Shown here: positions 22,925 to 46,934 of the stretch, in pieces
How the letters are laid out: every line of letters starts with the position of its first letter
Numbering within the stretch: the first letter of the stretch is position 1
Assembly (NCBI GenBank): GCA_018524725.1
Contig: JAEUWP010000375.1
Coordinates: 1 to 64,000, forward strand
Direction of reading: 5' to 3'
DNA length: 64,000 nt
Source of the DNA: Podaxis mareebaensis
Lineage: Eukaryota; Basidiomycota; Agaricomycetes; Agaricales; Agaricaceae
Position numbers and translations under genes: made by a program
Notes under the pieces: generated by a model
Database searches by the model: none
Seen by the model: only the letters and a program-made list of their open reading frames with translations
What the model was told of the DNA's origin: nothing

Positions 22925-23430
22925 CACCTGAGACCAATCAGACTTGGTACCCAGTACAGAGGGTGCCAAAGTTTTTATTTACGGGTTTGAATCGTGTTAC
23001 AAATCGAAATACAACACGTGTTTAATGACAGAAGTAGAATCAGGAAATTAATTGGAGCAGATCTCCGACTCAGCGTCCTGATTCAAAAACAATAGACACT
23101 TCCAATTTTGAAACTCATTATTGTCTCGTAACTCATAATCCATAAACATCATGACTTAGAACCTGTGAGAGAATGGGTTCTAATCCCATATTCATTGTAA
23201 GAGGAATAATCAGTGCAAAAATCGATGATTGCTACAGGGGTAGGATTGGTATTCTGATCCGATGCAATCCATGTACCAGAAACCGATTGCTGCCAAGATT
23301 TAGAATCGGTTCTGTGATTGGCATGAGGCACCGAGTGATTTGCTAATTCAAAATCGGTAGGTGATTAAGATTGAGTGGCCCATGAGTGGGCACAGGAGCA
23401 GGACAATCAATTGTTGACCCAAACTTGCAG
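22925..23430 (+). repeat. Left terminal inverted repeat of the 24-kb element
   Basis: Aligns with the reverse complement of 46430-46931 along its whole length with scattered mismatches. Shared landmarks are GGTACCCAGTACAGAGGGTG, AACACGTGTTTAATGACAGA, ACAATAGACACTTCCAATTT, GAGAGAATGGGTTCTAATC and CAGAAACCGATTGCTGCCAA. Confidence 0.9.
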
Positions 23431-23432
23431 CA

Positions 23433-24378
23433 GCAAGACATTAGCGTGCGGGCAGTAATGCGAAACTCATTGGATGAGTGAATATGCATTGTGAAGGGCG
23501 GCGTCTATGAGGTAACGAAAAAAAAATGCTTCTGCATACACTTCTAATTCACCTCTGTGTTTCTGTATGTACGCAAGGCTATTCATGGTGATTCCTCCTA
23601 TGTACAGCAGAGATTGCACTACAAACACAGCATACTCTTATTTGCAGTCATCCTGATCCGCTACAAGAAATTGTGTATCCTCCCCTTCGCTGTATCATCC
23701 TATAATAGAGTGATGGGCGTCAAAGAAGACTCAGGTCAGAACCTTTGTACTAACCGACATTTACTTCAAATCCAACGCTCTTCTCCTGCAGATCCTGACC
23801 ATTCCAGTGGCCATTAATCCCATATAGAGGTGCTATGGGTTCTCCAGATTTGGGAGGAGCATGGAACATGCAAAATTCGAAATTGTGTTTGTCAAAGAGC
23901 CGGACAGTAGCATGTTTCGGGTTTGATGCTGGCTCATCTCTTGATACATGTCCAACAGCACTAGTGAAATTATCAGATGGATTCCAAAGGAGGCGCAACT
24001 GGAAACGAACGTAAGGAGCGCAGATACGGGGCCATCTAACCCCTTGTCTTCCATATGTTTGAGAACCGCCAGCCAAATCGCTTTGAGATGTTCGTTGATA
24101 TCTGGCTCAATCTGCTTTAAAGTCTTCTGCTTCATGTTCCCCACTAGATATACTGTAACTGCAGCTTGAGTTTGCAATTCCATTTTCCCATAAGAGACGA
24201 AGTCAGTTGATGAGTAGTGACAAGTTGGAATGCAGCACGGGAGTTCTCGACACACTCATCAATGATCAGGTGCACCTAAAAGTTTATTTCACAAGTGACG
24301 GGCCTCAGGCCCTTGTTCGTCAAGTTTCTAGACAGCTTTTGGATGTATGGTTCATGCTTCGTTTATAGACTCACTGCG
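23433..24378. other. Region next to the left TIR, no intact gene
   Basis: A minus-strand frame near 24255-23833 gives QTQAAVTVYLVGNMKQKTLK and LKHMEDKGLDGPVSALLTF, which has a counterpart near the right end (KYMEDSRLDGPVCALL). It is a remnant of an unknown gene duplicated in inverted form. No start, splice pattern or family can be supported. Confidence 0.4.
23930..24100 (-). repeat. Inner inverted repeat, left copy
   Basis: Aligns with 46125-46310 in inverted orientation (shared core TCAAA.ATATGGAAGA and TTAGA.GGCCC.GTAT). It extends the terminal inverted repeat inward after a non-matching gap of ~500 bp on the left and ~120 bp on the right. Confidence 0.7.
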
Positions 24379-24749
24379 ATGCCTACCACTGCTCAACCTA
24401 AGTCCATCGCTGTTGCGGGCGACCTGACTGTCTTTATAGCAGAAATTGGCACTGTTGAAATGTTCTGCTCGAACCAGAAAGTGTTTGACTTGAAACCGAA
24501 GTATGCTCCGAGTACTATTGCAGCTTGTGATGTAATTGTCGCTATTGGCACAGAAGTGAGCTGCAATCAGCAAGGGAGGCATCGTGTCTGAAAGGAGGCT
24601 AACATACCCCATGGAATAATACAGTGCAGCTCCATGAATGGGATGGTAACTCTTTGAAGGAGATAGGCGTGCTTGAGAACAATCGGGCTCTGGTTTCTGC
24701 CTTGGCATTCTCGCTTGATGGGAAGTACCTTGTAGTCTTCTCTTGCTGA
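24379..24749 (+). pseudogene. Fragment of an actin-interacting protein 1 (AIP1/WDR1)-like WD40 gene
   Basis: The frame from 24379 reads PKSIAVAGDLTVFIAEIGTV, then SNQKVFDLKPKYAPSTIAAC and VAIGTE. After a degenerate intron region it continues NTVQLHEWDGNSLKEIGVLE and LVSALAFSLDGKYLV, then a stop. This is the second beta-propeller of AIP1, a cofilin-assisting actin disassembly factor. Only about 120 of the ~600 residues are present and the rest of the gene is absent on both sides, so it is a host gene fragment captured by the transposon. Confidence 0.65.
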
Positions 24750-25673
24750 GACCTCATCATCGTCAGTGGTGTGCGAACTTGCGCCACGTTATGGATACGC
24801 TGCGGTGATTTTGGGTATCTGGTCGTTGTCTGTGACGCATGAGATGATCCTGAAGTCAGTGGCCTTATCCTGGCAATGGCGCGACGAGATCCGCCTTCTT
24901 ATGCAAGTTGGTGTGAATGTGAGGAGTGATATCAGCAAGGTCAGGGAGACTATCTGCACTATTGTTAAGACAGCCCAAATCAGCTAGACTTGAGGCATGC
25001 TAAAGAGCAATGGGTGCATCAAACCAAGGATGTTAAACACCTTCTCCTTGGACGAGAAGGCCCTGAGCCAGTAGCCCTCAAGTTCATGCACGACAATGTC
25101 GGTGGGAGCCATGAGGCAGTGCCACGAGCTCATCTACAAAGAATGTCAGTCTCGATAACGCTAGGGAAGTACCCAAAGACCGCACCAACCAAATCGCTTG
25201 TCCCTTGAGTTGTTGGGTTCCGAGATCGGTAAGGATAGACGTCAGTGGGGTGTGGTTAAGGCAGTTGACGGTCTCAAGACTAAAGACATGGTCGTGAATA
25301 CATGGAAAGATCAAGAGGAAAAGATGCACCAGTGTGCAGGTGTACAAAAGTGACTCCATTTTGTAATGAGTCGAAGACAGTCAACCCCACAAATTTGAGA
25401 ACCATCCAATGCTAGTTGTATGAGATTCTCCTATGAGTAAAATCAGAGTCAGTGGATGGTTCGTAATAAAGTATTATGCTTAGGCAAAAACAATTGAGCT
25501 ATTTGATATATGACAAAAACCAAATGTTAAAGGTGCAAAATGCGAGACACTTCGGACCAGGATGAGTACCTATGAATAACTACTAAAGACTTTCAACTTT
25601 TACTGACTCCACTCTGCTGAGGCGTCAAAACTCCATACTAGGACAGTCACGGAATACATAATCACAATTCCTG
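24750..25673. other. No recognisable gene
   Basis: Several short frames on both strands, none with family signature or consistent splicing. Possibly the decayed flank of the captured fragment and the 3' flank of the transposase. Confidence 0.4.
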
Positions 25674-28600
25674 TCAAGCCATTAGTGAGAATGATACATA
25701 GGAAACCAAACATCCCACCTCTGTTACAGCTTTCATAATCAGGCTCTTGCTATTCCATGGGCGAGCAAAAGTGCCATAAATTACCAGCTCTGAGCTTGAC
25801 AATATTTCCACCTCGTCCTTCAACTGTCGCGACCAGATGGAGGCTCCGAACTGAGGATATTCTGCGAGAATCCAGTGGTACTCCTTCTTCTGATGTCGGT
25901 GGATGGCAATATAGAACCCGGGTTCTGTCCCAACCGGAACAAAGATAGAACGAATGACAGTGGGCACCAATTCATTCAGGTCAGCACAGAAGTAGAAGAT
26001 GTGGCTATCCTGCTGAGTTCTCGAGAACGTTGAGAACTCCTTCCCATTCACGGCACATCTCGTATACTCAACAATTGATCAGCATGAAGTTGGCACAATG
26101 GAGCAAAAACGATTATAAATGGCCTCATCCATCAGAGTCTCCTTGCCTAGGCCAATGGTGCAGGCGTTATGCGAGAATGATTGACTGTCAACAACAAGTG
26201 TTCCAATTTTTGCAGAAGGAAAGCACTTGTCAAAAACCTCGAGCGCCTGTTCAATCAAGCTTGAGTTCTTAGGCTTGACACAGTGCAAAGCAACCCGGAG
26301 TTGAGAGCCTGCATAGAATGACTTGACCATTGTTTTTTCAAGCGCTCCTGGGAGATGTTAATATCAGCTGTCTCTCCTTGAGTTGATTTGACACACCTGG
26401 TTTGTAATTTATGTTCAGTTTTTGGAGCATGCCAATCAACCGCTCAATGGGAAACATCCACCATCCATGAATTGGCCCAAACAGATGAAGGAACCGATCT
26501 AGGTGAAGAGCATTATGATGAATCGGGTGGAGGTTGATGCTAGGACGAAGTTCCTGGACTGATACAATGTAAGCGTGCATGAAGTGAAGATATCCATCCA
26601 CATGCACTGGGGTGATAGCATGAGAAGTAGCATATCGAATGGCGATAGAGAGAAGGATTGTGCTGTGGATGACTGCTAGCCGATCTTTGTCAACAGCTTC
26701 CCCAGCCTCCCCAGCCCAGAGCTTGAGCATTGAAACCAGAAGGTCAAATTCAATGCATGCTCTCCATTCATCAGCTTTCAGTTTTCCATGAGTGGGTGTT
26801 CCGAAGTTGGCTGGTGGGCATGTCTTCCAAGCGGGACGACTTGTTGACTTGATGTCCAGATGAATCTGCTGAAGTTCGTGTAAACTGAGTAGTGGTGGCT
26901 CGAGAGGTAACACGTCGAAATCAATTTGAGCAAGATCTTCTGGGATGGTGTGGATATTTTGTACCGCGGAGGTTGACTTTTGAGGGGTTGCGGAAGTCTA
27001 GCTGCAAGTTAGACAAAGGGAAGAAAAGGCACAACTCCACATACCAGTAAGGCAGAAATATAATCCTTCTTCTTCAGATTAGGCCGCTGGACTTTATGAG
27101 CCACTTGCTGTTCCTCACAGAGTTCTCGCAGGACGGGGATAGTGAGTTTACGGAGGTTTGACATAGTCGGAGTTGATGAAAGGACTTCACAACCGTGCTG
27201 CATGTTCTTCTCTCTTGGGGCATCTGAGTGAAAATCAAGATCGTCATAGTTAGGTTCCTCCCAATTCATTCCGACAATGACCTGGAAATGGTGCTTTACA
27301 AGGCCAAGAAAGAGATTGTGCATGCCATCAATAACGACGTATCTGGTCGGGTCCCAGTAGGACAGGTGAAGTAGCTCGGACCAGCGGACTCCATTGACTT
27401 TGTATAATTTCACACAATGAGACCTGTTAGGAGCTTCTCACCATGCAATTGCAGCCCTGCGATACTCATCCAGAGTCACGGGCCTCCAAGCCTGACTAGT
27501 GCGGTCAACATTGTTGATGTTGGCCCTTAGCAAGTGACATAGAGAGCAGAATTGCGTAGCAGAATGGGAAGCACACCCACAAATTTTACGGGAGCCAGGA
27601 AGATCATTGATACTTGGAATCAGAGCTTCTCGAGATCGGCGACCTCCCGGAAACTCGTAAGTGCGAGTGAACCATGTACCTTCATGGTAGCAAGTATTGA
27701 GGGTGTCGATGAGGGGGATAAGATAAGGGTTAAGAGCGTCTGCCGCCGGTTGTTTGGGCCCAGGAATGATACCGACAAGATATATGTTTTCTGGCTTGTA
27801 ACGAAGTTCTGGCGGAAGACTGAGGCAGAGCATCACAAGAACGCCAGCCGAGGCAGATTTCCCAGCCGCCTTATTATGGAATGGGTTGAAGGCATCATAA
27901 CTAAGGCTCCAAACACTCCGTATTTCGTCCTGGGACTCAAGAAAGATATTTCCGGCTGAATCATGGAATTCCCAGAGACCCTGACTTTGATTGATGTCTC
28001 GAATTGGTCCGTCTCCTTGGATTCAGCGATTGGTTGAACATATGGCTGCTTCAATACCAGGGCAGGAGTAAAAGGCTCCAAGGAATGCAGTAAAGCTTTG
28101 CATTGCATACGGACGAATAGGGGTATGAACACTGTAACCTTTCTTGACACCAAGTTTACAGAGGCGAGCATGACAAGGGGGGCTGTCCGGGAAGCGCGAA
28201 GACGTACATCGAGCAGGATAAACATCAATTCCATCCCGATGTGTAGGGGGGTAAAGTGTATGGCAGGATGGACAAGCAGCGTATACTGTGACGCAGAGAT
28301 CAAGGGGGAAGATCTTGCGTGCAGCCCGGATGTCAACTGGAATACTGTCGATTATGGCGTTCTGACCAGGATCTGCTACCGAAGCTTTCAGCACCAGCTT
28401 GAGCATTTGTAGGCAGAAGTTAGCCGTGGATCTAGAGCATGCAATGAGGAGGTTTAGAGCCGTGGCCATGAAGAAAACGATTATAAGGATGGGATCGGCC
28501 CGGGACAATGAAGAGTTGAAATGACAATCTGTGTATTCCAATTTGAGATAAAGAGGATTCCAGAGACGACAATCACTCACTCGTGTCGCATACATTGCTG

Positions 28601-29168
28601 GAGTTCGACGATGAAGAAATCAATCGATTCAGCATCTCCAAGCAATGCGTCAGCTGCAGAAGCATCCCCCCGATTATTTCTATACAGGCATCTATCATCA
28701 GCAAGCAACTGGGTTGACTGTGATCGGATGAATGCGCAAGTTGAAGCTCGAGATCCAAATAATAATTTCTCTCCCTTTCGAAATAAGAACAAGCTTCCGA
28801 GGCAGTTTGGAATCGAGTGGATGAAGATGAGGGGGCACCCCCTTTCCAATATTCTAGCTCGCGTTTTAGAGGAACTGTCCTGGCCTTGATAGAGTCGTGG
28901 AGTTCTAGTAGCTTGGAAAAGGGCGATGGTTCTGTCAGAGATCAGCAAACAGATCTTGTGCTAAACGAACAATTTATTCACCTGGAAGGGCCAATGTAGG
29001 GTTGTCCAAAGTGAGACGGCTCATTGAGGCCGAGGCTTCACCGAGAGCTGTTCTGTTCAGCGCCTGCGCTTCTTCTGCGTGAAGGATTTGGTCTGACTTG
29101 GGTATGGCTTTTCCATTGCAGCAAGGGCAATGGCAAAGAGCTAACGTGTGCGTGTTGTATCTGCCCAT
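25674..29168 (-). pseudogene. Tnp2-family (CACTA) transposase, nonsense-damaged
   Basis: Catalyses cut-and-paste movement of CACTA elements. The N-terminus MGRYNTHTLALCHCPCCNGK is a zinc-binding type; exon 2 continues EPSPFSKLLELHDSIKART. The core shows CPSCHTLYPPTHRDGIDVYP, SYDAFNPFHNKAAGKSASAG, RYKPENIYLVGIIPGPKQP and CSLCHLL. Then come NGVRWSELLHLSYWDPTRYV and DGMHNLFLGLVKHHF, a SAP-like stretch (LRKLTIPVLRELCEEQQV) and the C-terminal FGPIHGWWMFPIERLIGMLQ. A last part has AVNGKEFSTFSRTQQDSHIF. Two in-frame TGA codons, at 28023-28025 and 27438-27440, stand where related proteins usually have Arg, as from CGA. Some borders, chiefly around 28580 and 26900, are uncertain. Confidence 0.8.
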
Positions 29169-30115
29169 CAAGGAGAGATGTGGGTAGCAGGAAGCAAAAG
29201 GAGGTAGCAGTGGGCGTGATATTCGAAGTGAAGTTCCTTTGTGCTGAACTAGGCAGCTATTGTGCACGTCTCGCTTGGATACATGGGACGAGGTTTCCAA
29301 TCACTTGCATACACAACACCAATTTAAAACTAGGCAATGAAGAACAACAGGAGTCTTCAATTGCATTTGGTGATTGTCAGGTACACTCGGATGCCTCATT
29401 TCAAGCCACGTGGATATGGAGACCCTGAGAGCCGTCCAGAGAGCCCTGTGCTTCGAGAGATCGTGAAGATGAGCCCAAAGTGGATACGTAGGTGGGTGGA
29501 AGTGCATTTTGAGGCAGTCGGCGACATTCAAGGTCGGCACCAAGGTTTGAGTTGGCGAAGATCGTGTGTGGAAGATCCACAACACAACCATCGGGAGAAA
29601 AGCAACAGTGTTCGGTAAAACCAAGACACTGTGCCTCTTGCAACACGCAATAGCCTGGGGTGGAGGGCCAACATTTGAGTGGACTGAGAAGATGGATGTG
29701 TTAGGAGGCTGAGCAGGTTCGAAGATTGATGAGCGGGCTCAGAATAGTGGTTGATCAGTGCACCCGCTCACTTTTCCACGAGGTTTGATCGCCGAATTCT
29801 GATGCCCACTCAGCGACTGGCTAATGACATCTCTCCTTTGCCTATGTCGTATCTTTGTCCCCACCTTTGTGCAATGGATTTTCCGAGCACGATAGCCTGT
29901 TGTGGTTGTACCGTGCAGGTGGACGCACCGACTCATTTTCTCATATGTTCATCATTACCTCTGCTCTCGGCTTTGTGCAAATGGATTTTCCGAGCATCAC
30001 AAATCATCGTGGTTTACCACACAGTTAAGCCTGGATGTTCATCTCAGTATACAACACACTTGCGGCGAATGTGCATCAATTCAGGTTAACAGCACTGAAT
30101 TAGTACAGTACTAAG
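29169..30115. other. Gene-poor spacer with a dispersed repeat fragment
   Basis: No gene. The part 29870-30080 resembles, in inverted form, the sequence at 38300-38400 just before the large agaric ORF (shared GGATT.TCC.AGCA and TTGTGGTT motifs). It also contains two copies of TGGATTTTCCGAGCA. Confidence 0.45.
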
Positions 30116-31428
30116 TCAAGGACGCCTACACGGTCGAAAACTTGGCATGAATGTATCCATTGACCAAGTTCCATGGCACGTCTCCAAAAACATTAACCCT
30201 GGTAATTTCATCTTCAACTTACGAGCAAACTCCCTCTCCTCATCTATTTCTGTCCTACATGTATATGCAGTAACCTTGATTTCACTCACAAGTGGGAAGT
30301 CATCAAGCAAGCAAAGAATATAATTCTATACATTGGGGTAAGTTCCAATTTTTTCTTGAATCGGCTGAATCACTCACGTAGACAGGCGTTGTCAACTCAT
30401 CCAAATGAAGCGCCAAAGTTTCCAAAGATGCTACGCCCTTTGCCCGCAAGGCACATGAGCACATAAAGTTGTCTGACATAGAACAATGCCTTGAAAGGCC
30501 TGCCGGAAACTCGAATTCGACCTTCATCTTCTGACGGGTGAGGTGAGTGGAGAACCGTCTGAATGTGCTGGCCATGTCTTTGATCTTCTTGCAGAATGCA
30601 GGTGTTTCTGGTTCTTTGAAAGGAGTCAGAATACTCCATGGCTCCTGTCCGTTGATACACAAGCAGCTTAGAGCCAGAGGCTCCCTCGATTCCCAAACAA
30701 AATCGGGAGAAGTTGTCAGGTATCGAAGGAACGGTGGAACCTTATTCGCAATTCTGGCACGCTTTTTCTGCTTTTGCTGGGTAGTCAATATCCATCGTGT
30801 GTATGGACGTATTGTCACAAGAGAAGTCAGGCTGGAGTGGCACTTGTAGAAGGAAGGGTCAATCAAAATATGATGATCGCTGATTAGCCACATGGAGTAG
30901 AGGCCCTGGAGTTGGATGTCTTCCCAATGGAATGAAGGATGACAGGGGTGGACGTGAATCCATAACATGGAGGGGAAGGGATTGTTGAGCAACAGTTGGA
31001 GGACATTGGTTTTTTGGCAGCCGCTGATGCAGTAGAAAGCCGTACTGAGCTCAATGCAGTGAGCGCGGAGGATAGGGGTGCCAGTGTGCCGCTCTGGTGC
31101 ATCCTCTCGAAATGTAAGTGCCCGCTGTGGAGGTTTTCTGTCGTCGCATAGAAGTTCTACATTATCTAACGCTGCCTTTGTCCCGATAGCATTCCATAAA
31201 TCATCAAGAGTGGGAGCCACACGAGGATGCTGGAGTAGGTCGAGCTCTTCAGAATGGAGCCGGATCTTAATGGTGGAGATAGAGAGCGCGCGCCACATGA
31301 TCTGGCAGATGCTATGATTGAAGGAAAGCAGTGCCCAGAAATCACAATCAACGGTGATTTTCATAGTGACCTCGGGCAGGGGGAAAAAGGTGGCGAGGAA
31401 AAAGGGGTCAGTTTCGTTGATACAGTGA

Positions 31429-33024
31429 GCAACAAAACTGTTCCAATGTTTGGAAATTTTAGAAAGAAATTACAATATCTCTGAACTGGTTAAGGTGACT
31501 ACCTCCAGAATATTTCTGAGAATAGCCTAGTTTCTTAACTTTGATCCCCTCAAGTTTTATTATGTAATTACTTTAGCCTCATTTAATATCAATTATTGGG
31601 TCAATATTACTCATTGGAACAGTTTTGTTGCCAATGTTCTGGTACATACATACAAGGGTATAATTAGTACTTGGTGTATCCTCTATTAGCCCTTATCACT
31701 GCCTCTATCCTCTTAGGCATACTTTCAATCAACTTCTGACACTCAGAAGCTAGTATGTCATTCCACTGGTCCTGTACTCTCTCCCATAGTTTATTTATTC
31801 TCTTGGGTGGAGATTTATACTCTCCTAGTTTTTTCTTGAGGTAATCCTATAAGTGTTCAATGGAATTGAGGTATAGAGACTGTACTGGCCATGAAAGAAC
31901 CTTGAATTGGTTTTCCTAAAACCAGGCTATAGCTTTTTTGCTCCTGTGCTTGGGATTATTATCTTGTTGAAAAATTATTTCATCCTTCTCCAGCCCATAC
32001 CACTTCACAGTCCTCCCAAGTTCATCTTCCAAAATGTTCACATAGAGGTTATCATCCATTTTCCCATCAATCTTGGTTGCAAACCTAGTTCCATCCCACA
32101 ACATGCAGCTCCAAATCATGAGTAATCCTCCTCCAAACTTGACTATTCCCTCTATCAACCTATTACTAAGGTCCTCTCCTAGCCTTTTCCATTTCTGCTT
32201 CCTACCATCTGACTCCAACCTATTGATCTTAGTCTCATCAGACCATATAACCTTCTTCCAGTCCTCCAGGGTCCAATGCTGGTGTACCAAAGCAAAGTCC
32301 ACTCCTTCCCTCCTATGCCTAGTACTAAGGAAGGACTTTTTCTTCTTCACTATAGCTTTGCAACCTGCCTTCTTTAAGTGTCTTCTGACAGTCTGAGATG
32401 GGACTGATGTCCCATTCACCCTACTCAGTGACTTGGTCACATCCTGGGCAGTATCAGCCTTGCCAGAGCCAATAAGATGAAGGGCATGTCTAATATTGGC
32501 AGAAGTGAGTTTCTGAGGATGGCCTCCAGGGTTGTAGGAAATTGTGGGAAAGTGCTGAGAGCATAGCCTGGAGATAGAGGACTTGGAAACACCAGTAGTA
32601 GTATAGATCTGAGCATATGTTTTATCATCAGAAAGCATAGAGAGGATAGTAGCCTTAGTAGAGGAGGAGAGAGAGTGCATGATACACAGAAGGGGTAAGA
32701 CCTGATGGAAAATGCTTGTCATCAGGTCTATAGATACAAGAGGAGTGATTAGCTACATAATCTTGTTGAATGCAATCAACAAAGTCACATAAACTATTTG
32801 TCTTTTCCTGCTTCATAGTCTGCAACAAAACTGTTCCAATGAGTAGTATTAATTAATTAATGCATATTAAATGGAACTAGAAGAGTTATGTCATTATACT
32901 TGATGGCATCAATGGTGACATAATAGGCTATATATATAAATATTTTCAGAGAAACTGCTTTAGCTGATCTAGAGAAATATTAATTTCTTTCCAAAAGTTC
33001 TAAACATTGGAACAGTTTTGTTGC
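31429..33024. repeat. Four copies of a 20-bp motif in the Tc1 ends
   Basis: GCAACAAAACTGTTCCAATG occurs exactly at 31429-31448 (+), 31612-31631 (-), 32822-32841 (+) and 33005-33024 (-). Each end thus carries an outer and an inner copy facing each other. Paired sites of this kind are transposase-binding repeats in IR/DR-type Tc1 elements, but there they are usually in direct, not inverted, order. Confidence 0.85.
31664..32722 (-). pseudogene. Tc1-like DD34E transposase with two stop codons
   Basis: N-terminal helix-turn-helix domains are visible (DDKTYAQIYTTTGVSKSSIS and TSANIRHALHLI), then the catalytic domain: WSDETKINRL (first Asp), FQQDNNPKHRSKKAIAWF (second Asp), and LNSIEHL with the Glu 34 residues further on, hence DD34E. 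The frame is interrupted by TAG at 31916-31918 and 31847-31849, and the family motif SPDLNPIE has changed to SLYLNSIE. The first 268 codons are open. An inner ATG at MHSLSSSTKAT may be the native start. Confidence 0.9.
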
Positions 33025-33256
33025 TCACTGTATTTGCACCAAGTGTGAGCTTCAAAGCATTGAAGGAGTTCTGAAGTACCCCTCTTTCCTCCAGCCTCGG
33101 GCAGTATGCTTCCACTCCAGAGCCAATGAAGCGACTGTCTGCTTCCATCAACGCGATCAACCCGTGATCATCTATGATGTGGAAAATACGGAGCAGCAGT
33201 TCATCGGGCAGCATGCGAAGTGATAACCCCTGTTTGCTGTCCCTTTCTGCTTTCAT

Positions 33257-34225
33257 TCGAGTACCTTCACCGTTCTAGTACCATTAGTGCATAATTACCG
33301 AAGGAAAGCATTAAATTTACCAGTTTTCTTTTCTTTCTATCCTCGTTCTCGAGCCTTACAACTGCCTTCCGTTTGTGGCTAGAATGTAAGCCGGAAATGC
33401 AGAAAACCTGGCCCATCAATCGTGTGCACTAGATATGAAGTCAACCTCGCCACATGCCAATAAGATTGCAGTATATACCTGTCCTGCAGCATTAATGAAA
33501 AACCTGAACGGGTCACCTAGGAAGTGTGTTGAACGTGCTAGAGTATGCATCCAAGTTGAATGTCAGAGGCGGCTGGGTAGCAGTTATGAAACAAATCCAA
33601 GATAACTGAGTAGTCTGCACAACTGATCTCCTTTAAATCTAAAAAATAAAACTGATGAAAAATTGGCAGCATTACGACTCCTAATTGTCGAAGCCAAGGA
33701 AGCCAGCAACTCTCCTGCCCCCAATTGTGTATGATTTCATTCAGTGGCTACCATTCCACTCTTCTCTTTCTCTTTTGTTCCTCTGCAACTCGTACAACTG
33801 TTCACAACTTTTGTCAAACTCACTTCTTCATCCTTTATTCACAACAGGTCTATTGAAGGTAAATGAATGCTGACCCTTTCGCACTCAGACTTGGAGCCTT
33901 GTGAAGGCATCTGATACTGGAATACAATAGCTTTCATATATTAATGAAGTAGACTCCACATTCGATCCACCGCGCCATCACTGGGTCCATCTCATGCCAC
34001 CTAAGTCCATTGAGCACGATGCAGCCATACCAGTGTACAAACCTGAGCTCGTACCTTCAGACCCTTTCTCTGCTTTTCAAGCTCATGTTTGACCAGTAGT
34101 TTGGTCGCCCAGTTATCTTTGAACTGTTCAAGAGTTGGGTGTTTGTTCGCTGCCTGAATGAAATAAGGTTTTCATGCCAGGTCTGAAATGGAAGTTCACC
34201 AAACCTGGATGCAAAGACTATTGAT
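33257..34225. other. No recognisable gene
   Basis: The upstream region of the F-box gene. Short frames on both strands have no family features. Confidence 0.4.
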
Positions 34226-34411: not shown

Positions 34412-34746
34412 GCTAGGGAGAGTGGCTGGCTTTTGGATCTTGTGTGATTCTTTGTTTAATCCACGTTTTGTGTGATTATCAGTTGGAAAGGTGTGCCTGA
34501 GGGTTATGGGTGGAGGGGTGACTGCACGCTTGGGAGAGAACCTGCAGCGAAGGGTGATAGGAGGGAAGAAACGCTGTGCTCAATACGAAGTTCTTGATGG
34601 GGGCATTGAGATTACAATAGTCACTAGGTGCTTTTATTGTCCATGTGCTACTATATTATAGGAGTATCATTTATAAAGCCTCCGGGCTGATATAAATCAT
34701 ACATTTGTTCACTATGTGGCAGCGCTATTTCATTTCCAGTCCCACC

Positions 34747-35592: not shown

Positions 35593-35643
35593 TTGGAATA
35601 TGTATTAGACAACAAGACAACATAGTGAATGTACAGAAGATTG

Positions 35644-38305
35644 TCACTGCATTGACGTAAGATGCTTGCCAAGTTCCTCCTGGGACCACCTTTCAAGTTG
35701 CATTCTGGTGTTCCGTGCATCCTTGAGACCACGCAGGTTGTCATGCCAGTTTTTCAGACCAAGTGGTTTGCTGGTGGCATCCCCTTTACCAACAGAAGCA
35801 ATGTGCTTTGTGAACCATTCTTCGTTTTGAGATGACCAGCGTATCTGATGTAATCCACCTTCTTCCCAGGTCTCAGCTAGAGGAAACCATGACACCTTCG
35901 TCTGTTGATCACCATAACCTGGTATAGTAGGAATACATGAGAATGTGCTACAGTTGACTTTTGAGTTGCACTCACCGGTAAACTTGATGTACAGCCTGCA
36001 AAGGAGATTTCTTTCATCTTGAGTCAGCTCATCATCAACGTATTCGGTCCCTTTGCTGTCAACGGCAGAGAACATGGTCTGACCAGCGGGGTAACGGGCG
36101 ACGGGGCCTTCCAATGCCTCACTGAAGCTGAGTATGTCTTTGGCAATGCGCCACAAGAGTCCACCCCCAAGCAGTGCGGCACGACCATGGCGCTGTTTGA
36201 GTAACGCAGCAATATCTTGCTTGTAGAACTCGTAGTCTATACTTGTGAACTGATCTGTTGCGACGCGGATGTGAGCAGGCACAGGTGCATGGAATTCTTG
36301 AGGAGCCGATGCAAGGTCTTGTGATTGACGCATCGTCCTAAATTTGATGCCATTCTCCAGCAAGTAAGTCACAATATCTCTTTCGTCAACCAGAGAATCT
36401 GGAAGCCGGCAGATGAGGAGGGCGACTGATGCAGAGTGGACAGTGAGTTTCCATGGAACGGTCAAGAGATCACCAAAGTCGAACATATACAAGCATTCTC
36501 CTGAGCTCGAGGTAAGGGTCTGAATAGTGTGGATTCGCAAGGATGTCATGGCGAAGAGGCGGTTAGATGGATGAAGATCCCAACTTTCAGTGGGAGGTTT
36601 GATGGGTGGAACTTGCCAGAAATGACGTAGAAAATTGATACAAAGGTGGGCTATTGGAGTCTTTAAGAGGGCCGGATTGTGTTGAGCCCCCAAAATACCT
36701 GTGATGGCCAAGGTATTACAGCGCTCCACAGGTGTGCATTCTCCAGGAGCCCGATCAGGTAATGGTAACAGAGGGACAAATCCATAGAGCAACCGTAATA
36801 TGTCGAGGAGCTGTGAATCAGGACTAGCTGAATGTTCAGGTGAGAGCGAAGATTCCACTTCAGGGGGGGGATTCAAGGAAAGCAGTCTCAAGATTTGCTA
36901 TCTCTGCCCTCCAGTTCTCGTCTGCCTGCAACTCAAGTTCGTCGTCATCCTCGGGGTCCTCTGGTCCAAGTTCGTCGGCGCAATTCCACTCATTGTAAAA
37001 GGGATCATATCGTTTCTGCTGTGAGCCGAATTCCAAAAGCTTGTCGAAGCGATCTGCTTTGGGGATGAGGGTCTGTTTATAAAGGCCGGAATGAAAATCC
37101 CAATCCCAGACATAAACGGGAGCCGAAGTCGTGGGTGGTTTTCGCTCCTGATTCTCCCACCGTAGGTGGGCTTCAGGTGTTTCCCTTGCCTGGCGCTTTG
37201 TGTGGGCAGCTTCTCGTTTCCGAAAAAATTCATCCAAAATTTCGTGGGCTGCTTTGGGTTGGGGAATAGCTTCTGTGGAGTCGTGAATAGCAGGCGGTGA
37301 CGCAGGGGTAAAGAGCGGACATTCAGCGACAGGTTCGAATTCAATGGCAGGTTCAAAAGGGGTCATAGAGGGTGGAACAAGGGATGGGATTTCACTGGTG
37401 GCCCCAGCGGAGGATGGCGACGTGTTGGTCAAGGATTGGGCAGTCATGAAGGGGGAAGGTTCCCAAGTAATCCAAGTTGTCGCTTTCTGGAGCTGCCACT
37501 CCGGCGGAGGTAAAAGAGGAAACCTTGGATCATTCGTCGATGCAGCCACCTCTCGTGGACCCCATCAATACCATACAGGGACACCGCACGAAATAAACCA
37601 GGAAGCTGTTGGCTGACTAGCAGTCTCGGGAAATGGGAGGATGACTCCAACACGGTCTGTGATCCAGTCCCTGTGCAAGAGAGGAGCTGTTCGTAGGCTG
37701 TCCACAATAGCTTGTCCAATCCCGAGTTGAACGGCTTGTTGGAACCACATTGGAGGAGTGATTCCTTCGCGATGGTTTGGGTCAGGGATTCTGCATATCA
37801 TCCAATACAATAGACCGACCCAACTTGAGAACCAGTCGCGTGCAAGAACCGCTTGTGTTCAGGCCTGTCATTGTGTCTTGTGACCTTTGTGATAGCCAAA
37901 ATGATACGGAGGAAGGGGTCGCCAGTAATAGAGTGCATGTTTCGATGCCAATTCCTTGGTGATCTTCGCCAAGAGTTCATCTACACCTAGCCACTGATTG
38001 ACGAGATACTGTGGCATCATAAAGCCACGCTTCTCATAATACAACATACGGCGAGGAATGAAGGAAAGCGTTTCAAGGAGTGCCCCAGTAAAGAAAACAG
38101 GCGACCGAGGTATGAAGGCCAACCACTCCATTGGCGCCGCCCACCATCAAGGATGTTGCAAATTCTCCATAGTTAATTCTCCATTTCGGAGGGCATTGCA
38201 CAGGTCTTTGTCTTCTTCAGCGTCCAGTAGGATAAAACTACGAGCGCAGTTTGGTGAATAAAATATGTCTCTGTTGACAACATGTACTGTTGATTTAGCG
38301 TCCAT
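35644..38305 (-). pseudogene. Large agaric repeat-associated ORF, broken
   Basis: I recall this protein type as multi-copy in mushroom genomes, without known function. The order is FILLDAEEDKDLCNALRNGE, then MEWLAFIPRSPVFFTGALLE, YLVNQWLGVDELLAKITKEL, RDWFSSWVGLLYWMICRIPD and SWFISCGVPVWY, then WGPREVAASTNDPRFPLLPP, VYVWDWDFHSGLYKQTLIPK, RLLYGFVPLLPLPDRAPGEC, DFGDLLTVPWKLTVHSASVA and HGRAALLGGGLLWRIAKDIL. Breaks: TGA at 37565-37567 between VPVWY and WGPRE, TGA at 38147-38149, and a frame change at the G8 run 36863-36870, where seven bases would keep one frame. The homopolymer could be a sequencing error; the TGAs are less easily explained so. Confidence 0.6.
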
Positions 38306-38567
38306 GGCTGGATTGTGCAGTACAACCACAACAATCTGATGTGCTTGGAGAATCCGTTGCACAAAAGGACGAGGAAGAGAACTGGGGGTGGCAGCGGCGC
38401 AAACAGGGTGAAAGAACGAAGCAAGGTGAAACAATGGAAGATATGATTAGAAAGGTTGAATGAAATTGGTAACTGTGGGAAAAAGTGAGTGTGAGCAGGT
38501 CCTTCCACTGATTGGGTTATCCTTGACCATGACTCGACCCCGATCATTTCTCCTGACCCCGCTCATC

Positions 38568-38825
38568 CCTCATCCTTCTCGATCCTGCTTCTTCTCCCTC
38601 AGCCCGTTTCCTCTCGAATGTTTCCTCCACCACTCGCCCTCTCTACCCGCTCATCCTCTCCACCTGCTCATCTTCTCCACCCACTCATTCTCTCCACCCC
38701 GCTCATTCTCTCCACCCTGCTCATTCTCTCCACCCCGCTCATCCTCTCCACCCGCTCGACCTCCCAACCACTCGATCCCACTCATCCTCTCCTCCCACTC
38801 ATCCTCTCCTCCCGCTCGCCTCCTC
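38568..38825 (+). repeat. Pyrimidine-rich minisatellite
   Basis: Imperfect tandem copies of a 17-18 bp unit of the form CTCATTCTCTCCACCCCG, varying in both ends. It lies in the 5' region of the broken large ORF. All ORFs across it are repeat artefacts. Confidence 0.85.
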
Positions 38826-39171
38826 ATGCGCTGGCCCTCCACTCAAGTTCCCGCCTAATCGCAGAGGTGTCAGTGTCTCGGTTTTACTAAACACTGGCAG
38901 TCTCTTAGCCGTGTGTTGTGGATTTTCCGCACACAACCTATGCCAACTTGAATCTCCCGCTGACATGCTGCCTTGGGGTTGTCTGGTTTGATGATACAGT
39001 ACTGTTGGGGGGACTTGCTCAGAGCTCACACTTATCTATGCTCCCCAGTGTTCACGTACTTGGATGAGGCATCTGAAAGTAACATTGGAAGTTTCTTATT
39101 GGCGGTCCTCACACCCGAGTTAATCAGTAAAGGCAAGTAAGTATTTTGTGATTGTACTATGTTACTCATAC
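38826..39171. other. No gene seen
   Basis: Short spacer between the minisatellite and the WD40 gene; no coding signal. Confidence 0.4.
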
Positions 39172-40905
39172 TTATGATAACCACTTGAGTGGTTTCCAGA
39201 AATTGCGCGTCTTCATCTCGATAACTGGTGCCACCGCCTCAGGGACCTCTACCTTCCTCATCCCTTTCAAACCTAATGTATCACATATGGTGAGGGCGAG
39301 CTCCAGGATTGCTTCAATCGCTGAAAGCTTAGCTGCCGCTGACTTATCTATTAAGGAGCTGACAGTGGCTTGCGCTAGGAGGGCCAGGAGAATGGTGATA
39401 ATCGCCTGTCCAAACAAGTATGATGCAGCAGCAGCTACTGCGTTTTGGGCTCGTCTGTTGCCTCTCTCCTACGGTGCATAAGTATTGAATATCTTTTCCA
39501 AAAATAAATGGCACACTGACCTTTCTACTTAACAGCCAAATCTTTATGTCCACTCCCCCGCCATGTTTCTCTTCAGATTCACCGGTTCCAGTCGCTATCC
39601 AGTATTCATTGTCATGTTGGTGTGCCTAGCTGTTGGTAAGCAACAGTTTTCTGGGACGTGAGCCGTGAATTGCTTACTGTTACAATCTGAACCATCTTTT
39701 GGGCTGGATTGACCCATTGCTTTCCCCATCTTCCTCTGACTCTACTTTCCGTGTAACTCCAATGAGGAAGATCGAGCAGCTCTTTTGCGGAATCATTGAA
39801 CACCTGGGCGACGCCACAATCGGTTCCTACCACAATTACCTGGCCACTAACAGAAACTAAAAGTGGTATGCCCCTCTGGTTAGCCTTCCTGGTAAAAGAC
39901 TTGCGCGGGATCTGAACTGGCATCCTTTCAGGTGGGAGTGAATATATGTTGACACCTTTCTCCAGGTTAGACACCACAAGTGTGTCATGGCTTGGTGTAA
40001 TGGCCGCATGCCCGCTGAATGAGGAACATCAATCAGCGGCGTTGGTGAACATTGGTTGTCCTTACATTTGAGTAGCTAATGTTGTTGACCACTTCAGCTC
40101 CCACAGATTCACATTGAAGGAGCAACTACAGGGATGGTTAGCCTTCAGACCAAGTGAGTACCAGGCCTCTTACAGCTCATGTGACTCCATGAAACTAACT
40201 AGAACTTCGTCACCATTCTTGTTGAATCCAACGCTGTGTGGTGTGTATTTTCCTTCTGATGTTTCGCTCGCTATCTCAACGAGTCTACCTTGGACAAGAC
40301 TCAGCCTACACCTAGTAGGGTTGAAGCTGTGCCAAACCTTGGTCGTCTAATTCGTGGATCTTGATTCCTTCGCGTGAGACCGAAGCGACGTGATGATGTT
40401 CTGGGTCAAATGCGAGTTCCTCAATTGGGGCGTCAAATGACTGCTGGGTGCTGCAGATCCTGAAATGCTTTTTCCGAGTCAGATTTCCCTCCGAAGTTTA
40501 GTTCTGCATACCTGGGAAGGTAACGGCTCTTTCTTGTATGTGAAAAGGGTGCCATCGGCACAGCCGAACACAAAAGTTTCTGACGCCTCTTCAGAACTTA
40601 GCGGGGTCCAAATCACGGAGCAAACTGAGCCATGAAGTGGGACCTTAACAATCTGGTAGCTACCTTGCCTTTTGAGGTCCCAGATGATTAGAGCTGCGTC
40701 GTCCCCTGGAGCAGTCAGCCAATTGACTCCGCAACTAGTCAGGTCTATCACCTACCCCCGCTCAAGAGTCTGGAACAATCGGAACTGAATCTGAGTGTAT
40801 TAATTGCCCGTGTGTGGCAGCTTAAGGTATGCTTTAGCTGGAAACTGGAAGTCAGATTGTGCACTGACGGAAGGGAGCTAGACTTACGGTTGGTTGGAAG
40901 GGCAT
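39172..40905 (-). CDS. WD40 beta-propeller protein with C-terminal transmembrane helix (copy 1)
   Basis: Begins MPFQPT before a donor. The next exon gives TRAINTLRFSSDCSRLLSGG, then DDAALIIWDLKRQGSYQIVK, GSVCSVIWTPLSSEEASETF and FVFGCADGTLFTYKKEP. Later blades read APIEELAFDPEHHHVASVSR, MVSNLEKGVNIYSLPPERMP and SGQVIVVGTDCGVAQVFNDS. Near the end, GVDIKIWLL is followed by a last exon with FGQAIITILLALLAQATV, a clear membrane helix, then ~55 residues. The order is the same as in the gene at 44502, but sequence identity is low, so these are old paralogs. WD40 propellers are protein-binding platforms and the partner is unknown. Several exon borders were not checked. Confidence 0.65.
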
Positions 40906-41223
40906 GGTTGCGAATCTTGGTGAGGGGGTGGATGACTGCAAACGTGCCTTAAATCTTGTTTATCCACAATAAGTCTCCCCGTTGTTCTTATCATCTTTTG
41001 TCTTGCAGACTATTATTATCATCTTTCGTCTTGCAGACTATTATCCCCATTTGGAAATAGCTCCACCTGTAAACTGTGGATTCTATGGAAACCAATTGTC
41101 AGAGTGGCGTACTAAGTGATAGACAGTGGGTCGTAGATCATAACGCTTGATAAATAGTGGTAGATAATAATGCTTGGATGTTATAAGTACAGGACTTGAG
41201 AGTGCGACTCAAACAAAACTAGA

Positions 41224-43441
41224 ATGTCAGCTAATTCCACTCCGACAGGATATTCTGCAGGTGGGACAGATAGCAATATCCCAACTCCTGAGGTTGTTGG
41301 TGGGCGAGTTGCCCGTGTTAGGCACTACGTGGCTACTGGTAATGGGTAAGATCAGTCATACTTAAAGGAATCCAGCCATACTAATGAATCGAAAAATCCC
41401 TAGTGCTCCAACTCACCCTCAAGCGTTCGGGGAAATGAGTGGACATCCTCATAATGTTCGTCTGCCAATCAATGTCGACCATTACTTCTAACCGACCCCT
41501 TATCAGGTTCAGAGCCCTTTGCATGAGAATGTCGATGAGAATGCCATCCGTCTCTTCGCGTGGAGATATTCTCCTTCTGACAACCAGGGTCTTCATAGGC
41601 TATGAACTCGCAAGACTATCTTGATGCAGACATTGAAATGAGGGGTCTTAGCGGTCACAAGGTTGGGTCCCTTCTGTTGCATGCATTGGTCTCACTAAAA
41701 AATGCTGCAGGCTACTCAAACACCTTCGAATGGGGATCACCCAGGGCAGACAGGGGAACCTCGCCCAAGTGGCACCTGGAACCATATGAACAAACCAGAC
41801 GTAAGATTGCCTCGCACCTACTGGGAGTGTAAGGCTCATGCCAATGCAGTCTCCCCCACCAGATTCTGCGTTGGCTACCATTATCCAAGTGAGCTTACTC
41901 ACCGATTAGACTCTCCTCTCCTGTTAACACGCAGCTTCAGTGCATTTTCCAGGATCCTTCTGTTCTGTCCCTAATTGTGAGTTGAGTCCCCGGGACAACT
42001 GTTTTTGGGCACATATTGATTCATTTCAGCAACAAGCATCTGCTCCAATGGTGTGCTTTATTCCCTTAAATACAAGCTGTTGCCTGAGTTCTCAATGGTC
42101 TTCAGCTGAACCAAATAGTCACTTTGTCGAGTGCGATAGCTCATCAACTCACAGACCATCTTTCAAAGCGGATTGATCAGCAGGTGGAGGAACAGCTTCA
42201 CCAACACCTTCAAGGAGCCCCTTCAAGTCCGACTACTCCTCCTTGCCAGGATAGCAATCAGCAAGGGACGCAGAGGCCGGATGCCAGTGCGATGAATATT
42301 TGCGATGATGAAGGACTGCACCGCCAAACTAGAGTACTTACCCCTGCAGACCACCAATTAAATGTGAGTGGCTTTGCGATTTTCGCCACTTCAGCTGACC
42401 CTGCCTGTGCAGATTCAGATTCAAGACTATCTAAAGGAAAAACGCCTCTGGAGATCTCCACCAGATGCGATCCTGCAACCTCCTCCGCCCGAGGATGTTG
42501 AGAATTATCAGGAGCAGCAACTTGGTTGCCGTGGTCCGACTGTTGCTGAACCTCGATTCGACTGGAACAGGGTGTTGTCAAATGCCAAACGATGCCGTTG
42601 GAACAGCGACCTTCTTACCTTGCTTGCTCAGGAGTTCAAGGAAAGAATGCGCACTACCATTGATCATCTCAAGGACAAGGAGGAAACATTCTGCCGCCAG
42701 CATTCGAAGGTCCCGAAGGGTACGAAGTCGACTCCATTTGACTTACTTGATCTCGCTCCTGCAAAACTCACCACTGCAGCTCTGAGAGCTGCTCTCGACC
42801 GTCGCCTCACTCGAACCAAGGTTGTGTACCTCGAGCAACAGCCTCCTTTTCCCGGATCACCTGAAACTCCTGAGCAGAAAAGGAAGAAGGTTGAGGAGAA
42901 GCACAGTGCTATGAAGAAGCGTGACCGAGTACTCAGCCGCAGGAGAGGGGTACACTAAAATGTACTTTCAACTGATTTTGTACCTGACTAGCCTACAGTT
43001 GTACCGGCACAGAAAAACGATCATTCAGAATCGTCGAAAAGACAACCCACTGTTTTGGGACAGTGTTGACACTCTTGTTACTGATCTTGGAGAGCGCGGC
43101 ATGAGTGAAGATGAAACCGACGTTGAAGGATACAGTGTTCGGCCCAAGGAAGTCCAGCGAGTCAGAGCTGGTTGGCGCAACCCCGATATTGTGAAGATAC
43201 TCAACTATGTTGATGCGACAGGTGATGGTAAAGTCAAGGGTGCAGGTAATTCTAGCTATGTTCGGCACAGGGAAACCAAATCGGACAGTGTTGACCCCTC
43301 TGAAAGCACGAAAAGGGTCCCCATTGGCCTCCCTGAGAATTACTATGACCTTTCATGGCGCAACGCCTTGACTGAAGGTCAGAGAGTTGCCATGGAGTTT
43401 CAGTGCCAGCACCCTCTCCCCGACATGGTGCGTTTCTCTTG
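41224..43441 (+). CDS. Agaric repeat-associated protein with GMSEDETD motif
   Basis: About seven exons. The start MSANSTPTGYSAGGTDSNIP is followed by a disordered N-terminus (HENVDENAIRLFAW), then LTDHLSKRIDQQVEEQLHQH. The main exon has IQIQDYLKEKRLWRSPPDAI, FDWNRVLSNAKRCRWNSDLL and KVVYLEQQPPFPGSPETPEQ, and ends SRRRG before an intron. The last exon has RKDNPLFWDSVDTLVTDLGE, GMSEDETDVEGYSVRPKEVQ and VPIGLPENYYDLSWRNALTE. I recall homologs as frequent hypothetical proteins in mushroom genomes, with no known role. The core is intact, but the exact 5' exons and the last few codons are uncertain (a donor may lie at 43428). Confidence 0.6.
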
Positions 43442-43631
43442 AACTCCCAGCTTCTGGTTACTTATGCATGCCTACAGGACAAAATGGAGTTATAGTTCTA
43501 TTGCTTCCTTTTTTCAATCATTTTGTTGTCCTTGTATCTGTAATACATGGGTCTCTCGTTATCGTAGATAGCTCTCAAACACTTGATTAATTATCGTATA
43601 TATATATGCATGTGCATCTCATCCCCCTCCT

Positions 43632-44501: not shown

Positions 44502-46018
44502 ATGTCTCAATTCCCCCAGGTCAGCTACCTGACGCATTCCGTGCCACTCAACTGATCTGAATATAATACAGTTTTTCCTTTCGCGCACTTACTCAGGCCA
44601 TACCAAGGCCATCAACGTGCTCAAGTTGAGCAATGATGGGTCTCGGCTCTTAAGTGGAGGTATGCTATCCTATCGGCTCCATACCTGGTCTCATTCCATC
44701 TGCCACTCTAGGGGATGACTGTAAAGTTGTTGTCTGGAATCTTCAGGACGCTTCATCCAATCCTGAGTGGGTTACCCACATCCCCCAGCATGGCGCCATC
44801 TGCAGTGCTACTTGGGCTCCACTGAAGCGTGATCAGTCATGGTGCCGCATCATCTTTGGTTGTGCTGATGGTTCAATCCACGTATATCGATGCACAAGCC
44901 CAGGAGACTATTCATTTGTGTGCAAAATGCATCCACACAATGATGCTGTTCAAGACCTTGCATTCGACGCGAATCACAGCCGGCTAGCAAGCATTGGTGG
45001 TGGTCAATTAATTGTGTGGAATATTGGACCTGAAGGTCACGCTTTCGCTTTTTCCGTTTGCATCTTAATCTGACATTCTCTCCAAGACACTTTGGTCCAG
45101 ATGGCTATCACCTCACCTCGAGATTCTATAGCTTGGTCTACTCGGTTTCTTGAATGTGGTGCGGCAGTATTTGTAGCGTTTCTCCAGTCACATGAAGTGT
45201 AGGAAATACCATAATGCATCAGTATTGTGTTGACCATAATCTACAGGCATGTTTATCAAGTTGACCCATGGAAGATGAAGGACAACTACATCCTTCGGAC
45301 TAGAGTGTAAGTCACCTTGGCTTCTGCAGCCAGAAACCACTAACCCAAGTCAACTAGTGGGTATGCCACTACAGGGACAGAGCAGTGCATGCTCCTTGTC
45401 TCAAACCTTGCAACAGGGGTAGATCTTTATGATATTCCACCGACAAAACCAATCAGGGTCCTTAGGCACGTGATCCGAAAGAATGTACCACTCACCATCG
45501 TACCAGCCCTAGGTGATAGTTTGGCAATCGTTGGAAGTGATGATGGCTGCATCCGCATTTTTGACCAAAGAACAGGTTCTCTGGCCAGTACTCTCCCTCA
45601 TGGTCCTAGTGTGTCCTGCAATGTCTCTCTATTGCATTGTTTACTTACTTGTCCTCCTCTAGTCGGAACCTTGGTTCAAATAGTGGATGTACGTATGCTT
45701 ATTGGATACATAATTGCCTGAAACTCATTTTTCAAGGCTTATTCAAATGCTGATGAATGCATAATTGCTTCCGGAACAAGTGATGAGAAGGAATCGGTCT
45801 TTGAGATCAAGTTATGGAGCACAAAGGTCAGTTGCGTGTTCACAATGCCCGACTGGCCAATTCCTTAATGCATTTTGTATCAGGACCCAGCCGCTCAGAC
45901 CCAAGAGACCTGCTCAATGCTGCAAATCCTCCTCCAAGTGTGGCAATCATGGTGGCTTCTCATTGGGTGTCTGTTTGCGTTAACTATCCAGCATCTTATC
46001 CTTAGGACTCTTACTTGA
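44502..46018 (+). CDS. WD40 beta-propeller protein with C-terminal transmembrane helix (copy 2)
   Basis: Starts MSQFPQ, then a donor. The next exons give YSGHTKAINVLKLSNDGSRL, DDCKVVVWNLQDASSNPEWV, GAICSATWAPLKRDQSWCRI, FGCADGSIHVYRCTSPGDYS, NDAVQDLAFDANHSRLASIG and GGQLIVWNIGPE. Further blades are AITSPRDSIAWSTRFLECGA, MLLVSNLATGVDLYDIPPTK, LAIVGSDDGCIRIFDQRTGS and CIIASGTSDEKESVFEIKLW. The last exon reads WQSWWLLIGCLFALTIQHLI, a membrane helix close to the C-terminus, so the propeller is probably tail-anchored on the cytosolic side. About 400 residues and no stop in the spliced frame. It lies ~400 bp from the right inverted repeat of the 24-kb element. Confidence 0.75.
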
Positions 46019-46124
46019 TTGTACTTGCCTATGTTATATGCTGAACATATGAACTTTCTCCGAAAATTGCCTCCAGTACTTCGCCACACTCAATACATCT
46101 GATAAGATCTACAGTGTCATCAGG

Positions 46125-46310
46125 CCTCGATGTTGGCTATCTGTTATGCCTCAATGTGATTTGACTGATGGTTCTCAAATATATGGAAGATAGCAGGTTA
46201 GACGGCCCTGTATGTGCACTTCTTATGTTCATTCCCATTGCACCTCTTCCAGAGTTTCTCTGATCATTTCAATAGCACTGCTGGATATGTACCGAGAGAC
46301 GAGCTGGCCT
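46125..46310 (+). repeat. Inner inverted repeat, right copy
   Basis: Partner of 23930-24100. Together with the terminal repeat it shows that the original inverted ends were longer than the present 500 bp. Confidence 0.7.
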
Positions 46311-46429
46311 GGGTATACATCAATTAAGAGAAGCTGTACCAAGGCTATGTATCAAAGCGAAAAGCCTTTTCGTACTCATTATATCATGAATACCCTTCTT
46401 CCGTTTTTTTTTTCCACCCATCCGTCCGT

Positions 46430-46931
46430 AAGTTTGGGTCAATGTATGAGTGCCCTGCTCCTGCGCCCGCTCATGGGCCACTCAGTCTTATTTGCTTCTC
46501 GATTCCGAACCTGGGAATCACTCGGTACCTTATGCCAATCTAAGAACCAATTCTAAATCTTGGCAGCAATCGGTTTCTGGTACAGTGATTGAATCAGATC
46601 GGAATGCCGATCCTACACCTGTAGCAGTTATCGATTTTTGCACCAATTGTTCCTCTTACAATGAATATGAGATTAGAACCCATTCTCTCACAGGTTCTGA
46701 ATCGTGGCATTTATGAGTTATGAGTTACGAGACAATAATGTGTTTCAAAATTGGAAGTGTCTATTGTTTTTGGGTCGGGATGCTGAGTCGGAGATCGGCC
46801 TCGATTAATTTCTTGGTTCTATTTCTGTCATTAAACACGTGTTGTATTTCGATTTGTAACGTGATTTAAACCCATAAATAAAACCTTTGGCACCCTCTGT
46901 ACTGGGTACCGAGTCTGATTGGTCTCAGGTG
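46430..46931 (-). repeat. Right terminal inverted repeat of the 24-kb element
   Basis: Reverse-complement match to 22925-23430, ending GGTCTCAGGTG directly before the target duplication TCA. Confidence 0.9.
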
Positions 46932-46934
46932 TCA

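Follow-up and report, generated by a model that had tools for sequence, protein, structure and literature searches.

A 64,000-nt stretch of the Podaxis mareebaensis genome (contig JAEUWP010000375.1, positions 1 to 64,000; hereafter the window) contains, at positions 22925-46931, a segment of 24,007 bp, which we interpret as one large, now broken transposon of the CACTA/EnSpm type, carrying passenger genes and captured fragments of host genes (estimated probability about 0.7). An initial annotation, made from the sequence alone, had described a 24-kb unit with terminal inverted repeats (TIRs) of about 500 bp, a TCA target duplication and a Tnp2 transposase inside, all of which were confirmed in this analysis. 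We infer that the cargo arrived and moved together with these ends.

Ends, target site and transposase

Comparison of the two extremities of the segment revealed inverted arms (22924-23426 and 46430-46932) of 503 nt each, which are 87% complementary and separated by a spacer of 23,003 nt. The outermost pair of bases comes from the TCA on either side, and the inverted repeat within the element is 502 nt long (left TIR, 22925-23426, plus strand; right TIR, 46430-46931, minus strand). One arm, used as a BLAST query, retrieved the other with E = 4.5e-171, and their similarity is therefore beyond chance. The element begins with CACCTGAGACC and ends with GGTCTCAGGTG, the terminal 18 bases on the left and right being exact inverted copies. 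Direct reading of the junctions gave TTCA followed by CACCTGAGACCAATCAGA on the left and TCTGATTGGTCTCAGGTG followed by TCA on the right, with the target duplication at 22922-22924 and 46932-46934; a single TCA is present at two paralogous sites. The window contains no N bases, and the G+C content is 46.4% in the element interior, compared with 46.8% and 50.0% for the flanks.

The flanks, joined with one copy of TCA, aligned over all 800 bases with contig C64 (17263-18086; 76%) and also matched two places on contig C311, in two pieces each. The C311 pieces crossing the junction begin at query positions 365 and 384, and the left flank is represented there by 35 and 16 bases only. The alignment shows one TCA at each C311 site (..ATATTC ACTAGAAGCC..), and for C64 it gives ..ATTT GCTAGAAGCC.., with TTG where TCA would be expected. 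These places are paralogous sites, not alleles, and host sequence of this kind exists without the insert. The gene in the left flank belongs to the DUF5648 family (PF18885, E = 9e-39), and its stop codon is separated from the element by about 130 bp. Further to the left, the window carries a cluster of duplicated host sequences, in direct and inverted orientation (15405-21945; for example 16803-18179 versus 20122-18754, 85%), and a region of tandem repeats, with copies 73-83% alike, was observed at 57976-58563.

The transposase gene (25674-28619, minus strand) is degenerate. Pfam Transposase_21 (PF02992) is recognised between 27438 and 28022 (minus strand, E = 4.8e-14), and a Tnp2 copy on contig C276 is homologous over 28523-27264 (33% identity), with more matches within 26997-26341; the portion 26357-25674 was assigned by position only. 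Two in-frame stop codons, starting at 28025 and 27440, interrupt the window copy, and the C276 relative reads through at these points. A PDB search with a Tnp2 exon gave no match at E ≤ 1. The ends of CAC..GTG form, the 3-bp duplication and the Tnp2 gene inside place the element in the CACTA/EnSpm superfamily; CAC..GTG ends and 3-bp duplications are also the criterion applied to fungal EnSpm families by Kojima 2025 (PMC12730594).

Protein and family searches of the genome (36.95 Mb, including the window) identified the same nine Tnp2 places, the others being 36-41% alike to the window copy (25% for that on C37). Two Tnp2-bearing stretches, C276:44.5-52.5 kb and C285:47-55 kb, resemble each other at 87-89% along almost the full 8 kb compared. 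Since the similarity spans nearly the whole of this stretch, the unit they share is larger than 8 kb, and a large size is thus possible for Tnp2 units besides that of the window. In the stretches examined on C219, C276 and C285, no long TIRs were detected surrounding Tnp2.

A gene at 42088-43442 (plus strand) is a possible companion of Tnp2, a candidate for a TnpA-like DNA-binding protein. An open reading frame (ORF) within it (42915-43439, plus strand) weakly matches sequence directly upstream of Tnp2 in C276 and C285; against all compared loci at E ≤ 1e-4, only C276 was returned. Part of what the initial annotation had named as cargo may be something else, this gene possibly serving the transposase and a further 1.6 kb belonging to a Tc1 element that arrived later (see below).

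Captured fragments and passenger genes

The strongest evidence of cargo is provided by two gene fragments that had not appeared in the initial annotation. Both are probably captured pieces of host genes, comparable to those of Pack-CACTA elements. They were detected in a DNA search with 20,000 of the 23,003 interior bases (23427-43426), in which 23 of 24 candidates were scored and the self-match of the window was not listed. The first fragment (24339-24732, plus strand; 83% to C54:95941-96334) probably corresponds to about residues 411-510 of AIP1/WDR1, with an apparent intron included, and the second (24843-25153, minus strand; 81% to C6:96467-96781) to a part of the fatty acid synthase alpha subunit (FAS2). 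Besides rows related to Tc1, each has this one DNA match elsewhere among the matches listed. The fragments lie 110 bp apart and their listed matches are on two different contigs; the presence of pieces of two unrelated housekeeping genes, matching two contigs, so close together between transposon ends is the pattern left by Pack-type capture (PMC8903248).

The plus-strand reading of the first fragment gave two exons separated by the apparent intron. When these were joined, residues 4-97 of 97 aligned with residues 413-509 of WDR1 (PDB 9qfq_P, E = 7.5e-4), colinearly over nearly the entire query. The ORF of exon 1 alone gave no PDB match. Among the seven PDB matches of the joined query, two WD40 proteins that align with part of it, PkwA (3e-9) and Ika8 (4e-4), outscore WDR1. 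For the second fragment, 11 of the 15 PDB matches of a single minus-strand frame are of the FAS-alpha type, as are 11 of 12 (best E = 3e-5) when the fragment is read across a frame change, these lying at equivalent positions. Both minus-strand reads returned ten chains named FAS alpha as well as 7q5s (1865 residues, named 3-oxoacyl-ACP reductase, at the equivalent position), and a plus-strand read returned no FAS-alpha match. The FAS-alpha match and the DUF5648 gene of the left flank are both in keeping with a fungal genome.

It is quite improbable that these fragments are, instead of captures, leftovers of other repeats or sequences with fortuitous protein homology. Such an explanation would be in keeping with protein matches that are modest and require the joining of an intron or reading across a frame change, with an exon 1 that finds nothing by itself and with two generic WD40 proteins scoring above WDR1; moreover, the genome search scores only the best candidates, so that further matches may exist. 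However, a single listed DNA match per fragment is what would be expected if that place were the host gene, and neither the colinearity of the WDR1 alignment over nearly the whole query nor the agreement of 11 of 12 matches on FAS-alpha-type proteins at equivalent positions favours chance.

Several apparently whole or split genes accompany the fragments. WD40-type repeats are supported in the gene at 44570-45900 (plus strand; WD40-R, with the 3' limit set by eye), where several beta-propeller models match at 44.65 kb, the best with E = 6e-9 and none above its curated cut-off. A second gene of this kind (WD40-L, 39612-40950, minus strand) was assigned on a weak Pfam WD40 match at 40.5 kb (E = 0.0062) and on paralogy to WD40-R, with which it shares 35% of residues over 60 aa and 28% over 120 aa; no DNA similarity between the two was seen in the comparisons run. 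One WD40-R exon, used as a genome-wide query, retrieved only WD40-R and WD40-L at E ≤ 0.001.

The proposed F-box gene is split by the nested Tc1 element. Its larger part, 3' of the insertion (30303-31469, minus strand), has its first 50 bases inside Tc1; elsewhere in the genome it is matched only over 28 residues, at the Tc1 end. The 5' part (32969-33274, minus strand) gave an F-box-like match with E = 0.064, below the Pfam cut-off, and the F-box-like ORF had no PDB match at E ≤ 1. The ORF at 34696-34977 (plus strand), described as SAP-like from a reading of the sequence only, gave no Pfam match at E ≤ 1.

The gene designated gene2 (35644-38146, minus strand) has four exons, defined against copies on C217 and C219, and belongs to a dispersed multicopy family of unknown function. 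Exon-by-exon searches gave 45 match rows genome-wide, many with stop codons, which merge into about 26 other places. In a collection of 5.8 billion proteins only the window's own copy was matched, and the PDB gave nothing at E ≤ 1. We considered whether gene2 is the element's own gene, which is favoured by C219: about 10 kb of that contig contain Tnp2, gene2 and, weakly matched, a gene3-like sequence (missing the E 1e-4 threshold against all compared loci). This was not adopted: of the roughly 26 other places, only those on C219 share a contig with Tnp2.

The gene3-L sequence (23750-24255, minus strand) has six other genome matches, and gene3-R (46150-46309, plus strand), beside the right arm, is a broken inverted copy of part of it (76% over 156 bp). 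The gene2 copies of C289 and C51 are each followed, about 5.6 kb further downstream, by a gene3 match in the same orientation; on C173 the distance is 10.7 kb and the gene3 match has the other orientation. None of these three contigs has a listed Tnp2. The remaining gene3 matches (C215, C320 and C124) are on contigs without a listed gene2. The pairs at C51:106.6-113.7 kb and C289:5.1-12.1 kb, with their common spacing, suggest that gene2 and gene3 are part of another multi-gene mobile unit.

The end family and the assembly of the segment

The genome was also searched for relatives of the ends. At least 19 matches to an arm were found, including the arm itself, and the exact 18-mer end occurs at nine places in the assembly, two of which are the element's own ends. 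With up to three mismatches the 18-mer occurs at 45 places, compared with 19 for a reversed control, which indicates that many of these sites are due to chance. Nine relatives possess two ends, and all of them are short (0.39-1.16 kb) and resemble miniature inverted-repeat transposable elements (MITEs): (i) C249 (90666-91776, 1111 bp, arms 97.5% alike) and C50 (14523-15634, 1112 bp, arms 99.6% alike), (ii) C186 (1161 bp, arms 72.5% alike), and (iii) elements of about 0.39 kb on C286, C9, C169, C269, C383 and C10.

Perfect 3-bp duplications flank seven of the ten two-ended members, the window element included (TCA in the window, AGA at C249, C50, C286 and C10, TCT at C186, TAT at C383), which corresponds to a binomial tail of 2.6e-11 at 1/64 each. 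They are imperfect at C9 (TGT/CGT), C169 (GAG/GAA) and C269 (ATA/TTT); the last of these was counted as a miss, its mutated right end having been placed by eye. The left end of C10 is mutated, yet AGA flanks both of its ends. The count excludes the one-sided ends (one each on C348, C314 and C111 and two on C160), as a second end was not found or, for C314, an internal remnant alone was present; C3, where the match is limited to arm positions 325-474, was also left out.

The nearly identical arms of C249 and C50, which are almost perfect 1.1-kb palindromes, indicate that the end family probably moved recently, although the Tnp2 of the window is broken. The transposase that moved the MITEs must have been encoded elsewhere.

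These short relatives are the main source of doubt about the interpretation offered here, and several other observations weigh against it as well. The initial annotation had held that end copies always paired at short distance elsewhere would refute a cargo-carrying unit and, taken literally, this is what the genome-wide TIR search returned (9 of 9 other two-ended copies); we read these copies as MITE derivatives. The window holds the sole large unit of the family among the matches found, and no second large copy displaying movement of the cargo appeared in the genome searches made. The presence of one inserted CACTA/EnSpm-type transposon is supported by the ends, the duplication, the Tnp2 gene and the paralogous sites without the insert; the cargo would have moved with it. 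The connection of Tnp2 with these TIRs, which it would have served, consists of one co-location, since the contigs of the other eight Tnp2 places carry no end of this family (18-mer, up to three mismatches). The putative companion gene is only weakly matched (E = 2e-6 against about 21 kb of sequence, the genome-wide search returning only the ORF itself), and a distance of about 13.5 kb as well as a difference in strand separates it from Tnp2. The putative donor places on C54 and C6 were identified through the fragment matches. Finally, the ends read CACCT, not the CACTA of plants, and the arms of about 500 bp are far longer than the 13-bp TIRs of a plant CACTA element (PMC2613891); short TIRs, which are absent here, were treated as a property of the plant type and not of the superfamily.

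It is worth considering whether a short palindromic element was inserted first, the 23 kb between its arms having accrued by nested insertions and duplications without the cargo ever moving with the ends. We regard this as unlikely. The shortness of all nine two-ended relatives and the dispersed, transposon-like appearance of gene2 would agree with it, and at least one nested insertion did occur. This is a Tc1/mariner element (31420-33033) with 32-bp exact terminal repeats and an HTH_Tnp_Tc3_2 domain; inner copies of its end motif are present, and its ten matches of at least 1.6 kb elsewhere in the genome (90-94% identity) make the family look recently active. However, besides Tc1 no nested boundary was recognised in a scan for exact inverted repeats (at least 11 bp with a flanking duplication), which is blind to nested elements with degenerate or no inverted ends; only Tc1 among its six candidates exceeded 12 bp. 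A Tnp2 of the expected type is also present inside. Furthermore, owing to gene3-L and gene3-R the inverted terminal homology extends beyond the arms on both sides, and it is missing in the four short relatives tested (C249, C50, C186 and C286), for which reason the founding element was probably not a MITE made of TIRs alone.

The internal symmetry of the segment could also mean that two neighbouring elements of the same family, their inner ends since lost, enclosed a composite segment. Two related halves are hinted at by the inverted pairs gene3-L/R and WD40-L/R and by an old inner pair at 29543-29911 (plus strand) and 38320-38955 (minus strand), whose members (29543-29911 versus 38955-38320) are 64% alike over 216 columns and 83% over 46 bp. 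Yet a sensitive scan of the interior revealed no relics of TIRs or inner ends, the WD40 genes share only about a third of their residues and showed no DNA similarity in the comparisons made, and one insertion would account both for the TCA outside each end and for the unduplicated TCA of two paralogous sites. A composite origin is accordingly very improbable.

Under the single-element interpretation, Tnp2, possibly with the companion protein encoded at 42 kb, would have recognised these long ends (CAC..GTG) and, in a cut-and-paste reaction, placed the element about 130 bp downstream of the DUF5648 gene, giving rise to the TCA duplication. Host DNA may have been acquired before or after this arrival, the AIP1/WDR1 piece (with its intron) and the fatty acid synthase alpha piece being copied in at the DNA level by a mechanism that we infer. 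Also aboard would be two old WD40 paralogues, the F-box-like gene and a gene2/gene3 module that recurs elsewhere. Tc1 was inserted into the element at a later time. The copy is now broken, as seen in the stop codons of Tnp2 and the 13% difference between the arms, and the end family persists mainly as short MITEs.

Comparison with known systems

Capture of several pieces of host genes by CACTA-type elements has been documented in plants (PMC8903248). The Pack-CACTA (Pack-TYPE) elements described there contain host-gene fragments, in some cases from multiple loci, between CACTA-like TIRs, and the window element likewise appears to hold host coding fragments between its TIRs. They are described as non-autonomous plant elements, whereas the window element is fungal and large, has a broken Tnp2 and, unlike Pack-TYPE elements with several mobilised copies, was found as one large copy only in the genome searches made. 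In size, 3-bp duplication and tnp2-domain transposase it resembles Tgmt*, a 20.5-kb CACTA element of soybean (PMC2613891). The latter has 13-bp TIRs, subterminal repeats and a 14.6-kb gene filling much of its length; the window element has 500-bp arms and many separate genes.

Fungal cases of capture have been reported for hAT elements with histone H3 (PMC6710886, PMC3538342) and for several superfamilies, including EnSpm, with TET/JBP (PMC12730594). The EnSpm, Plavaka and KDZ elements of the latter report are DNA transposons with a captured gene, and its EnSpm families share CAC..GTG ends and 3-bp duplications with the window element. The PlavakaA (TGT..ACA) and PlavakaB (CATCA..TGATG) ends differ from those found here, and TET/JBP was not among the six-frame Pfam matches, in which introns could hide exons; the window element carries instead several passengers and two gene fragments. 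In ascomycetes, a housekeeping gene of the host was likewise transduplicated by a DNA transposon, the histone H3 hAT elements of P. tritici-repentis being about 5.6 and 2.3 kb long and present in many copies (PMC6710886, PMC3538342). The element described here is of CACTA type, 24 kb long and found once, with fragments of two genes. Among the openly licensed papers listed in literature searches, none described a large CACTA element of a basidiomycete in which fragments of housekeeping genes had been captured. A 24-kb element with AIP1-like and FAS2-like fragments, passengers and a MITE family would make Pack-CACTA capture in fungi testable by strain comparison.

A more tentative proposal, which we consider possible though doubtful, is that very large CACTA/EnSpm elements form a lineage in fungi that acts as a gene vehicle, capturing housekeeping-gene fragments as plant Pack-CACTA elements do, keeping whole passengers and sharing the gene2/gene3 module with other dispersed loci. 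The WD40 pair, which has stayed open while diverging to about one-third identity and had no further genome match in the single search with one of its exons, would be such a passenger. Starships carry cargo. The Starships known from Tremella (42-606 kb) are also large fungal mobile units, distinguished by a tyrosine-recombinase captain (PMC13066641); no Pfam family of this kind was detected in the six frames of 23428-46430 at E ≤ 0.05. If the proposal is true, the lineage would represent the cut-and-paste counterpart of Starships.

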